NCBI RefSeq assembly: GCF_014652435.1
Contig: NZ_BMYU01000005.1
Coordinates: 124,001-188,000, forward strand
From: Cognatundibacterium squillarum
GTDB taxonomy: Bacteria; Pseudomonadota; Gammaproteobacteria; Burkholderiales; Burkholderiaceae_D
DNA length: 64,000 nt
Direction: 5' to 3'
Below the pieces are notes generated by a model. It saw nothing but the letters and a program-made list of their open reading frames with translations, did not search any database and was not told the DNA's origin. A program made the position numbers and the translations under genes. This document shows, in pieces, positions 4,657 through 60,514 of the stretch. How positions within the stretch are numbered: the first letter of the stretch is position 1; each line of letters starts with the position of its first letter.

Positions 4657-6018
4657 TTATTCCAGCGTCGCTTGTACCGATGCCAGTTCTGCGGTCGCGC
4701 TGCCTTCTGCCAGCTGAATGTGGTAGGCCTGATGCGGTTTCAGGGCAGCCGGCGAGCGCAGGATGCGGCCTTGCTGATCGCGCAGTATGGCGTAACCGCG
4801 TTCCAGTGTGCGTTGCGGGTTCAGCGCTTCCAGTTGCGCCTGCCATTGCTGCAGGCTGGTCTGGCGCTGCTGATGCTGCTGGAACTGCGCACGCTGCAAG
4901 CGCTGTTGTAATTGTTGCAGTTGCTGTCCGGCCTGCCGGATATCAGGCCGCTGCGCCTGCCAGCGCTGTTGCAGCAGGGTAAGTGCCTGCTGACGCTGGT
5001 GTAGCCGGTATTGCCAGACTTGTTTCAGCCGGTTTTCCCATTGTTGCAGGGTTTGCTGTTGCTGCCGTATCGCTGCCTGCGGACTGATCAGGCGACGGTT
5101 CAGATAGTCCAGCGTCTGCTGATGTTGCTGAAACCGGCGCTGCCAGCTGCGCTGCAGGCGTTCCTGCTGCTGATTCAGCTGTGTCAGCCAGTGCTCACAA
5201 GGCTGACCGGTCAGTTCGGCCGCTGCAGTCGGTGTCGGTGCGCGTAAGTCGGCAACAAAGTCGGCAATTGTGAAATCCGTTTCATGCCCCACACCGCTGA
5301 TAACAGGAATATCACTGTGGGCAATGGTTCTGGCCAGCATTTCATCATTGAATGCCCATAAATCCTCGATGCTGCCACCGCCACGGCAAAGAATCAGCAC
5401 GTCACACTCGGCACGGTCGTTGGCGGTGGACAGCGCCAGTGCCAGTTTTGCGGCTGCGCCTTCGCCCTGCACAGGCGCCGGATACAGGATCACTTCGGCA
5501 TGCGGCAGACGGCGTTTGAGTGTGGTCAGCACATCGCGCAAGGCAGCGGCCTGCGGACTGGTAATCAGGCCGATCCGTTTCACAAACGCCGGGAGCGGGC
5601 GCTTACGTTCGGCAGCCAGCAAACCTTCGGCTTCGAGGGTGGCTTTGATGCGCAGAAACGATTCATACAAATGCCCGACACCGGCCCGGCGTATCGCTTC
5701 CACCGTCAGCTGATAATCGCCGCGCGGCGCATACAAACCGACGGTAGCGCGCACTTCCACCTTATCGCCTTCACGCGGCTGAAACTCTGCATACATTGCC
5801 CGTCCGCGGAACATCACGGCTCTGACCTGCGCACCGGCATCCTTCAGTGTGAAGTACCAGTGGCCGGAAGCGGCGCGGGTAAAGTTGGATATTTCGCCGC
5901 TGACCCAGAGCAAGGGAATCTGGCGCTCCAGCAACTGGGCGACAGCATTGTTCAGTGCGGAAACCGACATCACAGACGGCATCGCAGCGCGGTTTAAAAC
6001 AGGAGACTCAGTATTCAT
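4657..6018 (-). CDS. xseA: Exodeoxyribonuclease VII large subunit
   Basis: Large subunit of ExoVII, which degrades single-stranded DNA from either end together with XseB (not in this window). 453 residues from ATG 6018 (MNTESPVLN); an upstream ATG at 6075 would add 19 residues unlike the family. The N-terminal OB-fold (about 20-120, with [10 protein letters not shown]) is followed by the catalytic core ([35 protein letters not shown]) and a long Gln/Arg/Leu-rich coiled coil from about residue 280 to 400. The promoter must lie in or next to the DnaA-box repeat block just upstream. Confidence 0.96.
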
Positions 6019-6211
6019 GCGGGTTTTCAGGCAAAAAGCTTTCCACAAGCAGCAAACATGCGGTAAGCATCGCATCCGGACGGGGGCTTGTCAAAGTGAA
6101 TGAAAACTGCTGCGCTAAGTGATTGATTATTCGGGATTTTCACTTTGCAAAATGTTTGTGCATCCTGAAAATATCCTTACAAATCAATGACATTCAGGGG
6201 ACTGTGCAGGC

Positions 6212-6246
6212 TTTTGCACAAGCTTATCCACAGAAAATGTGGGCAA
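6212..6246. promoter_or_regulatory. Consensus DnaA box inside an inverted repeat (unit 1)
   Basis: TTTTGCACA-AGC-TTATCCACA-GAAAA-TGTGGGCAA. The central 9-mer at 6224-6232 is an exact TTATCCACA box; the arms pair imperfectly. Confidence 0.7.
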
Positions 6247-6500
6247 CTTGGGGATATCTTTTTCGGATGGCACACTGCAGCAAGCTGCCTGTTTTTTAGG
6301 CAGAAAAGAAAATGACTTTCAATTCAGGGACTTAGCATGCTTTACCGGCCACTCTTCACAGTCTTTTCCACAAAAAATGTGCAAACTGTGTGAAGTTACC
6401 CACTGTTTCAGTCGGTCAGACGGGTACGTTGTTGCTGCTTAAAAAATAGTCAGAACAAGATATTCAATATAAATCAAAGACTTAGTGATAATTCCGGCGA

Positions 6501-6535
6501 TTTTGCACATGGTTTTCCACATAATTTGTGCAAAA
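6501..6535. promoter_or_regulatory. Best-preserved repeat core (unit 3)
   Basis: TTTTGCACA, TGG, TTTTCCACA, TAATT, TGTGCAAAA: nine-base perfect inverted arms surround a relaxed DnaA box at 6513-6521. Confidence 0.65.
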
Positions 6536-7219
6536 TTCCGGGGCAAGCTGGCTTTGAGTCTGCATTTACGCCGGAAAAAACAGTAAAACGCAGGGAAAGC
6601 GGTATTTGCTTAATTTTTAAGCGTAAATGGTTTATCTTTTAAAATCATGGGTTTACGGCGCAATTACATAACTTTGCACATAGTTTTCCACAAAAATTGT
6701 GAACAGTCTGAGCGGTTTGTCCCGGTGTTGGGGAAAAAACGCCATTTCGGGTTCTGCACACGCCTTAAGGTCGTTTTGCCTAAAAAACAGGCATTGATAT
6801 AAATGGTTTTAAAATCAGTGACTTAGCAGGCTAATCCCTGACTTTTCACATGTTTGTCCACAAAAAGTGTGCAGAACCATGCAGTGAAATGAACGGTATA
6901 TCCGGACTGCTGCGGGCTGTTGCCGCTGGCTGAAGTGCTGCCTAAAAAATAGGCGGAATAAGTTTATTGAATAAAATCAGTGACTTAGCGAGATATCGCA
7001 GGCTTGTCCACAAGCTTCCGCACAGAAAATGTGTAGATCCGTGGATATTCCGGTCTGCGCCTTGTTGTGCCCCGTGTCGTCCGGTACTTGCCCGTGATGG
7101 GCGAACACGTTACATTGCGTGCTGCACAAAACTTTGCACCGCAAGACCGGCCGACTATGGTCAGCATGCTTCGCGGTGCGCACTGCCTGCTGTTATTCCA
7201 CCTGTTTAAAGGAGTCACT

Positions 7220-7825
7220 TTGTTAGCTATATTTCAGGCCGCTGGCTGGCCCATGTATTTTTTGCTGCTGGCATCCATTATTGCGCTGGCGCTGATCGTA
7301 GAACGTACGGTTTCGCTGCGCGCCAGCAAAATTCTGCCTTCGACGCTGCTGGATGAAGTGATCCGCGTACACCAGAGCGGTAAAGCGACGCCGGAAGTGA
7401 TTCGTCAGTTATCTGAAAACTCTCCGCTGGGTCGCGTACTGGCAGCCGGTCTGCGCAATGTGAATGCGCCGCGCGAAGTAATGAAGGAATCCATCGAGGA
7501 AGCGGGCAGTGGTGTTGCACACCAGCTGGAACGTTTCCTGACCACACTCGGCACGATTGCTTCGCTGGCACCGCTGATGGGTTTGTTCGGAACGATTGTC
7601 GGTATGATTGAAATTTTCGGTTCCCAGACCGCAACCGGTGCGAATCCGGCGCAACTGGCACACGGTATTTCTGTCGCACTCTACAACACCGGCTTTGGTC
7701 TGCTGATCGCGATGCCGACGCTGGTGGCATACCGCCACTTCCGTGCGCTGGTCGATGGTCTGGTTGTGGAAATGGAGCAGCAAGCCGTGAAATTTGTTGA
7801 CGTGGTACACAGCGCCAGGAAATAA
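7220..7825 (+). CDS. exbB: MotA/TolQ/ExbB proton channel family protein
   Basis: Inner-membrane proton-channel subunit that with ExbD energises TonB-type or TolA-type outer-membrane processes. The chosen start is TTG 7220, five bases after GGAG (7211-7214), giving 201 residues beginning MLAIFQAAGW. A longer frame exists from 7067 but its extra 51 residues are unlike the family and fall in repeat DNA. Three membrane helices are seen: about 10-27, 108-130 (LAPLMGLFGTIVGMIEIF) and 145-172, with the conserved LGT..APLLGLLGTV-type signature. It is followed two bases later by exbD. No tonB is nearby, so partner choice (TonB versus Tol) is open. Confidence 0.92.
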   Translation: MLAIFQAAGWPMYFLLLASIIALALIVERTVSLRASKILPSTLLDEVIRVHQSGKATPEVIRQLSENSPLGRVLAAGLRNVNAPREVMKESIEEAGSGVAHQLERFLTTLGTIASLAPLMGLFGTIVGMIEIFGSQTATGANPAQLAHGISVALYNTGFGLLIAMPTLVAYRHFRALVDGLVVEMEQQAVKFVDVVHSARK

Positions 7826-60439: not shown

Positions 60440-60514
60440 CTCGCCGTAGTTCAATGGATAGAACGTATGCCTCCTAAGCGTAAGATACAGGTTCGATTCC
60501 TGTCGGCGGGACCA
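60440..60514 (+). tRNA. tRNA-Arg, anticodon CCU
   Basis: Full cloverleaf with encoded CCA. Acceptor CTCGCCG pairs with CGGCGGG (one U-G), D arm GTTC/GAAC, anticodon stem TATGC/GCGTA with loop CTCCTAA (anticodon CCT, reads AGG), T arm ACAGG-TTCGATT-CCTGT, discriminator A. Isolated gene with no duplicated 3' end nearby, so no sign of use as an integration site here. Confidence 0.96.

Follow-up and report, generated by a model that had tools for sequence, protein, structure and literature searches.

What is the function of the 1.2-kb spacer between xseA and exbB in Cognatundibacterium squillarum, which carries an ordered array of sites resembling DnaA boxes? The genome belongs with the genus Undibacterium (Oxalobacteraceae), and the spacer lies in a 64,000-nucleotide stretch of its contig NZ_BMYU01000005.1 (the window; positions are those of the window unless another locus or contig is named). 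An earlier note on this DNA suggested either a DnaA-titrating or replication-control locus, or a chromosome origin moved away from dnaA. We find DnaA-linked replication control to be well supported by the sequence, with the DnaA-reactivating sequences (DARS) of E. coli a better model than the datA locus, and we reject the origin. The spacer contains six units with the core geometry of DARS, and we put the probability that the array is a DARS2-like DnaA-reactivating locus amplified in tandem at about 0.72. On this reading, a cell-cycle control element that E. coli is known to carry as single sites would have been amplified in these bacteria. The geometry, conservation, positions and phasing of the units, and the presence of the protein genes considered below, are features of the sequences themselves.

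The six 9-mers that first drew attention to the spacer were found again at 6224, 6364, 6513, 6684, 6854 and 7004, all on the plus strand. The relaxed box TTWTNCACA occurs seven times between 6100 and 7200, against a mean of 0.27 (maximum 3) across 500 first-order Markov sets, and five times in the remaining 62.9 kb of the window. The repeated element is a 35-bp triad, in which two direct DnaA-like boxes 3 nt apart are followed, after another 5 nt, by an inverted box. The palindromic arms previously described on either side of each 9-mer, TTTGCACA and TGTGCAAA, do exist, but they are themselves DnaA-like boxes, and both are perfect only in unit 3. In place of a second protein on the arms, as earlier suggested, IHF, and perhaps Fis, would bind elsewhere in the unit. 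Because the arms are also DnaA-like boxes, the array amounts to six triads with about 18 boxes, most of them imperfect. On the plus strand, and with scores out of 24, the triads occupy 6212–6246 (unit 1, 22; TTTTGCACA, 3 nt, TTATCCACA, 5 nt, inverted TTGCCCACA), 6352–6386 (unit 2, 21), 6501–6535 (unit 3, 24, the only unit with three perfect boxes), 6672–6706 (unit 4, 21), 6842–6876 (unit 5, 21) and 7004–7038 (unit 6, 19), and their starts are 140–171 bp apart, as the 9-mers had been said to be. The description of the 9-mer as the central element fails for unit 6, where it is the first box of the triad. This exbB-proximal unit combines a strong first box with a weak middle box, TTCCGCACA, and the last unit is similar in several relatives (TTGCGCACA or TTGCACACA), hinting at a specialised end unit.

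In this genome, triads of this quality were found only in the spacer. Across 337.5 kb of other sequence from contig C5, which contains the window, and contig C3, the best triad on either strand scored 18 of 24, compared with 19–24 in the six units. A pattern search of the whole genome allowing up to three mismatches returned eight matches, all inside the array (the six units and two overlapping opposite-strand readings), and the reversed control pattern gave none in this genome and one across the eight genomes searched. The units are thus not scattered over unrelated loci, which the earlier note had named as a result that would speak against it, and a dispersed repeat is ruled out. A non-coding RNA was also considered; no Rfam match above the gathering score falls within the array, and the sole Rfam hit of the window is a tRNA at 60440.

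The geometry of the triad is that of DARS. Stretches of E. coli for DARS1, DARS2, datA and oriC were fetched for comparison, the first three from what we take to be their chromosomal places. Read on the other strand, the window unit equals the cores of E. coli DARS1 and DARS2, namely a box, 5 nt, an opposed box, 3 nt and a further box. These cores score 22 of 24 (DARS1) and 21 of 24 (DARS2, without any perfect box), and the DARS2 stretch holds one further triad reading at 19. For DARS2, the deletion primers given in PMC4585315 confirm the place: in the fetched stretch, their genomic portions flank the E. coli triad, one shortly before it and the other immediately after it. The spacing is described as equal in DARS1 and DARS2, with box I opposed to boxes II and III (PMC5742627); all six window units have three boxes with the 3- and 5-nt spacing, and box I opposes boxes II and III in the same way. 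When eight orientations and 441 spacings were scanned, the DARS geometry ranked first in the window, with six occurrences versus five for the next, a small margin in the window alone; among the 36 named spacers with exbB adjacent and a length below 520 nt it again ranked first, with 20 of 36 versus 10. No triad scoring at least 19 was found in the fetched datA and oriC stretches, and it is for this reason, together with the DARS-core geometry of the triad, that we favour DARS over datA. Both E. coli elements differ from the array in being single units, DARS1 in the bioD-uvrB spacer and DARS2 in the rppH-mutH spacer, whereas six units stand in tandem here.

Beyond the triad, the unit contains an IHF-like site at a fixed offset and a Fis-like palindrome. 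The IHF-like site 29–30 nt before the core matches the consensus at 7, 8, 9, 8, 9 and 9 of nine positions in units 1 to 6, and one common offset is shared at 8/9 or better by four units, a number that 2000 random sets did not approach (two at most). In units 2 to 6 these sites lie on the plus strand at 6322–6334 (8/9), 6472–6484 (9/9), 6643–6655 (8/9), 6813–6825 (9/9) and 6975–6987 (9/9). Unit 1, next to xseA, has an additional perfect site in the other orientation, AATCAATCACTTA (6116–6128, minus strand, 9/9 to WATCARNNNNTTR), located 96 nt before the core; it shares side and orientation with the match in E. coli DARS2 that we take as IHF-binding site (IBS) 2. E. coli DARS2 has two 8/9 matches, 59–71 and 75–87 nt after the core and 3 bp apart, the distance given for IBS1-2 in PMC4245941. 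Counted in the E. coli direction, the unit 1 site lies 84–96 nt after the core compared with 75–87 in DARS2, in the same orientation and 9 nt, or about one helical turn, further out. The commonest betaproteobacterial place, 85–97, likewise has the orientation of the second DARS2 match and stands one helical turn beyond it. In DARS2, an IBS shifted 10 bp away from the core is reported to keep moderate activity, one shifted 5 bp away only partial activity, and those shifted towards the core by 5 or 10 bp are only partly active (PMC4245941).

The unit 1 arrangement is that of many relatives with a single triad. Such single-copy xseA-exbB triads of other Burkholderiales resemble the array in position, orientation and geometry and differ in having one unit only. 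Among the 26 of 27 single-triad loci with enough flank for IHF and Fis counts, a perfect IHF match within 150 nt was present on the DARS2-like side in 14 (13 counts at −96 to −98) and on the other side in none; at 8/9 or better the counts were 25 versus 2, the base composition of the two sides being unmatched. In Undibacterium, a perfect site at this outer place precedes the first unit in 12 of 18 loci. Fis-like sequences were found before unit 2 (GCCTGTTTTTTAGGC, 6287–6301, a palindrome one position off the consensus) and in unit 3 (GCTTAAAAAATAGTC, 6437–6451), unit 4 (GCTTAATTTTTAAGC, 6608–6622), unit 5 (GCCTAAAAAACAGGC, 6778–6792, again a palindrome one position off) and unit 6 (GCCTAAAAAATAGGC, 6940–6954). 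In some array units they lie beyond the IHF-like site, a placement that may correspond to that in DARS2, the element for which, and not for DARS1, dependence on IHF and Fis is described (PMC8682772). Logos built from 87 units of the genus, and from a further 70 units at 13 other loci that include two Undibacterium records, show the IHF motif and the Fis-like palindrome at fixed offsets.

The spacing of the units also follows the turn of the helix, with a period of about 10.5 bp. Distances between neighbouring units cluster at about 139, 150, 160, 170, 181, 192 and 202. With two spacings above 300 and two above 1900 excluded, the vector strength at 10.5 bp is 0.60 for the genus (23 distinct values) and 0.42 for the other set (34 distinct values, including two further Undibacterium records), neither being reached by any of 10,000 random sets, with the proviso that values next to each other (169 and 170, for example) are non-independent. 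When the period was left free between 8 and 14, the best value was reached by none of 1000 random sets for the genus and by 2 of 1000 for the other set. The five spacings of the window alone are only suggestive of phasing (85 of 10,000 at 10.5; 258 of 1000 with the period free).

A survey of triads shows the boxes to be conserved in the syntenic spacer of relatives; their absence there was another result that, according to the earlier note, would count against it. The flanking genes, xseA (exonuclease VII large subunit; 4657–6018, minus strand, with its ATG at 6018) and exbB (MotA/TolQ/ExbB proton channel; 7220–7825, plus strand, its start being our choice), are conserved neighbours. A search with XseA located xseA in 29 of 31 genomes, and gave no locus in one Undibacterium genome (G017). 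The 18 Undibacterium loci, our own included, contain three to eight triads scoring at least 18 each, counts that in two loci include one triad 1.9 kb from the array. Among the 11 genomes of other families with an xseA locus, eight have one triad scoring at least 19 and three have none. Of 80 named loci, 54 have exbB adjacent, and 45 of these 54 carry a triad of at least 19 upstream of xseA in the same orientation (a single one in 28, two or more in 17); none of the 54 has a triad in the opposite orientation only. Control windows inside xseA contained no such triad in any of the 80 loci, these windows being coding and so of different composition. All 17 loci with two or more triads belong to Oxalobacteraceae, and arrays occur in Undibacterium, Janthinobacterium, Duganella, Massilia, Pseudoduganella, a record labelled Herbaspirillum and an uncultured Oxalobacteraceae record. 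Herminiimonas and Oxalicibacterium show neither a triad nor an exbB beside xseA. Across the order, a strict pattern (at most one mismatch) matched 82 of 150 genomes and its reversed control none of 150; among 30 loci listed from the 82 genomes, 20 are at xseA (our own included), nine at priA, most of which also showed hemE, and one (L251) at neither. Across the class, 113 of 185 genomes match and the control gave no match. One surveyed record (L096), titled as an Alistipes senegalensis MAG (metagenome-assembled genome), encodes an XseA 56% identical to the window protein and is probably a mislabelled or mixed assembly.

The spacer between hemE and priA is a second place for the same element. 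A triad of at least 18 was found there in 18 of 19 Undibacterium genomes and in at least three of 11 other genomes with a scanned hemE locus (one further genome had no such locus). The three of 11 is a lower bound because two genomes, G026 and G027, carry triads close to priA or hemE that fall beyond the stretches scanned. In our own genome the hemE-priA spacer (L226, 1088–1108) keeps two of the three boxes, the third not being recognisable. Among the 18 of 24 loci with enough flank, ten have a perfect IHF match on the same side as before, at −97 or −98, and none has one on the other side; at 8/9 or better the counts are 18 on the same side versus 8 on the other. In the class-wide set, 17 of 30 loci were scanned, the choice being made by long open reading frames (ORFs) and so not random. 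In nine of the 17, which come from other families of the class, priA starts beside the triad, the triad being directly upstream. E. coli DARS1 and DARS2, too, adjoin DNA repair genes (uvrB and mutH, respectively), and the array adjoins xseA.

The genome carries genes for DnaA, Hda, both IHF subunits and a Fis-family protein. IHF alpha, IHF beta, Hda and DnaA are all recognised above curated cut-offs, and DnaA is 53% identical to that of E. coli, with Asp269, Arg285 and Leu290 kept; these residues are named in connection with DARS or the arginine finger, Asp269 being described as dispensable at DARS2 (PMC8682772, PMC5742627). In E. coli, a head-to-head DnaA pair is tied to ADP release (PMC8682772). 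Each triad, its boxes I and II being head-to-head, would bind ADP-DnaA in the arrangement that drives ADP release in E. coli, so that DnaA could rebind ATP. IHF at its fixed site, perhaps with Fis, may bend the DNA, turning each unit on, and the helically phased spacing would set the six complexes on one face of the DNA. With six units the locus would have a greater exchange capacity, and as many as about 18 DnaA molecules could be held there as well. DnaA binding, nucleotide exchange and a gain from copy number are what we infer from the sequence features described above.

A broader model, which we regard as evenly poised between right and wrong, is that Oxalobacteraceae such as Undibacterium possess a reactivation hub of three to eight phased DARS units that would stack DnaA, IHF and Fis on one face, the number of units setting the strength or sharpness of the rise in ATP-DnaA. 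Such a hub may have grown by duplication from a single xseA-exbB DARS ancestral in Burkholderiales, with a second old DARS-like core upstream of priA. Parts of this picture have precedent. The DARS2 core is described as conserved among gamma-proteobacteria related to E. coli (PMC4245941), a passage on the DARS2 layout names beta or gamma (PMC5742627), and DARS-like sequences in many proteobacteria are mentioned, with reference to another paper, in PMC10380432. Because these papers already mention such sequences, we do not claim single-copy DARS outside E. coli as new; in the open-access literature searched, we found no account of a tandem DARS array, of the rearranged IHF site or of phasing. 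The literature that we found on the recharging of DnaA concerns E. coli, and the array offers a sequence-defined candidate in many betaproteobacteria. The natural variation in copy number from 1 to 8 would allow a direct comparison of the effect of DARS dose on initiation, and helical phasing would let the DNA-bending model put forward for DARS2 be tested in a natural setting.

Several observations weigh against a tandem DARS2-like locus. (i) The arrangement of IHF-like sites departs from that of DARS2 in units 2 to 6, where the site is nearer the core and its orientation is the reverse of that seen in unit 1 and in the E. coli match, and the assignment of the E. coli matches to IBS1 and IBS2 is our own reading. 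(ii) Fis is less certain than IHF because the strict Fis consensus is present in only three of the six window units and, among single-copy loci, on the IHF side of only seven of 26 (two of 26 on the other side). The 77-aa Fis-family protein of this genome passes model NF002517 narrowly (124.2 versus a cut-off of 122), and falls below the E. coli-type Fis model NF001659 (88 versus 99). (iii) Conservation is incomplete: a triad of at least 19 is absent from nine of the 54 exbB-adjacent loci, and an array is no family-wide rule, as three exbB-adjacent loci assigned by title to Oxalobacteraceae (L093, L094, L102) have no triad of at least 18 and Noviherbaspirillum soli has one. (iv) The neighbourhood is not that of E. 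coli, the array being flanked by xseA and exbB and not by uvrB or mutH.

Among the alternatives, the most durable is a datA-like or pure titration site, in which the array would mainly sequester DnaA, or promote ATP hydrolysis with IHF, and so lower initiation. The approximately 18 boxes and the IHF-like sites between box groups would suit this role, datA shares with the array DnaA boxes and an IHF site outside oriC, and titration of DnaA on chromosomal boxes has been argued for E. coli (in passages of PMC12371093). However, the core geometry is that of DARS and is missing, at the threshold of 19, from the fetched datA stretch, and pure titration would need neither the fixed 3- and 5-nt spacing nor a conserved IHF offset. 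The array also lies 21–28.5% of the contig away from dnaA in four relatives assembled into one or two contigs, whereas E. coli datA is closer to oriC, at about 10% as worked out from coordinates. We therefore consider titration unlikely as the main role.

A transcription switch, through which DnaA, IHF and Fis would control the divergent xseA and exbB, has in its favour that the array fills the upstream region shared by both genes and that, in other records, a single triad lies 98–265 nt from the xseA match. We find this explanation rather improbable, since another gene pair, hemE-priA, has this triad too, along with an IHF-like site whose offset is roughly equal, and six units across 900 bp seem too many for one promoter pair. 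Moreover, among 26 loci that gave no exbB next to xseA, six still carry a triad, although in at least three of the six the contig stops no more than 600 nt upstream of xseA, so that exbB may lie unseen. That the array serves another protein and merely resembles DnaA boxes would accommodate the imperfection of most boxes, but we give it very little credence, as the middle box in the logo of single-copy relatives is TTATCCACA and the three-box geometry equals that of a known DnaA element.

Compared with these alternatives and with the preferred reading of a tandem DARS2-like locus, the displaced origin of the earlier note fares worst. In its favour, the boxes are dense and dnaA lies on another contig. 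However, 57 of the 60 5-kb bins of contig C5 (297.5 kb) have positive GC skew, with the array flanked by positive skew to either side. In a complete relative (G013), for which skew was sampled at 20 places, the sign becomes positive near 2.8 Mb and negative again near 0.63 Mb, while the position of the array, 4.13 Mb, is some two thirds of the way along that arm. An origin here is scarcely credible. In G013, dnaA is not at the skew minimum. In both genomes dnaA (C3:222174 in our own, C1:2948805 in G013) stands off the change of skew sign, which is about 130–150 kb away and weakly marked in our own contig. Contig C3 also carries five perfect DnaA boxes within 330 bases (C3:386628–386957), in a region of weak skew. 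By eye, no typical origin neighbours were seen among the ORFs flanking this cluster, which is possibly oriC or another DnaA site.
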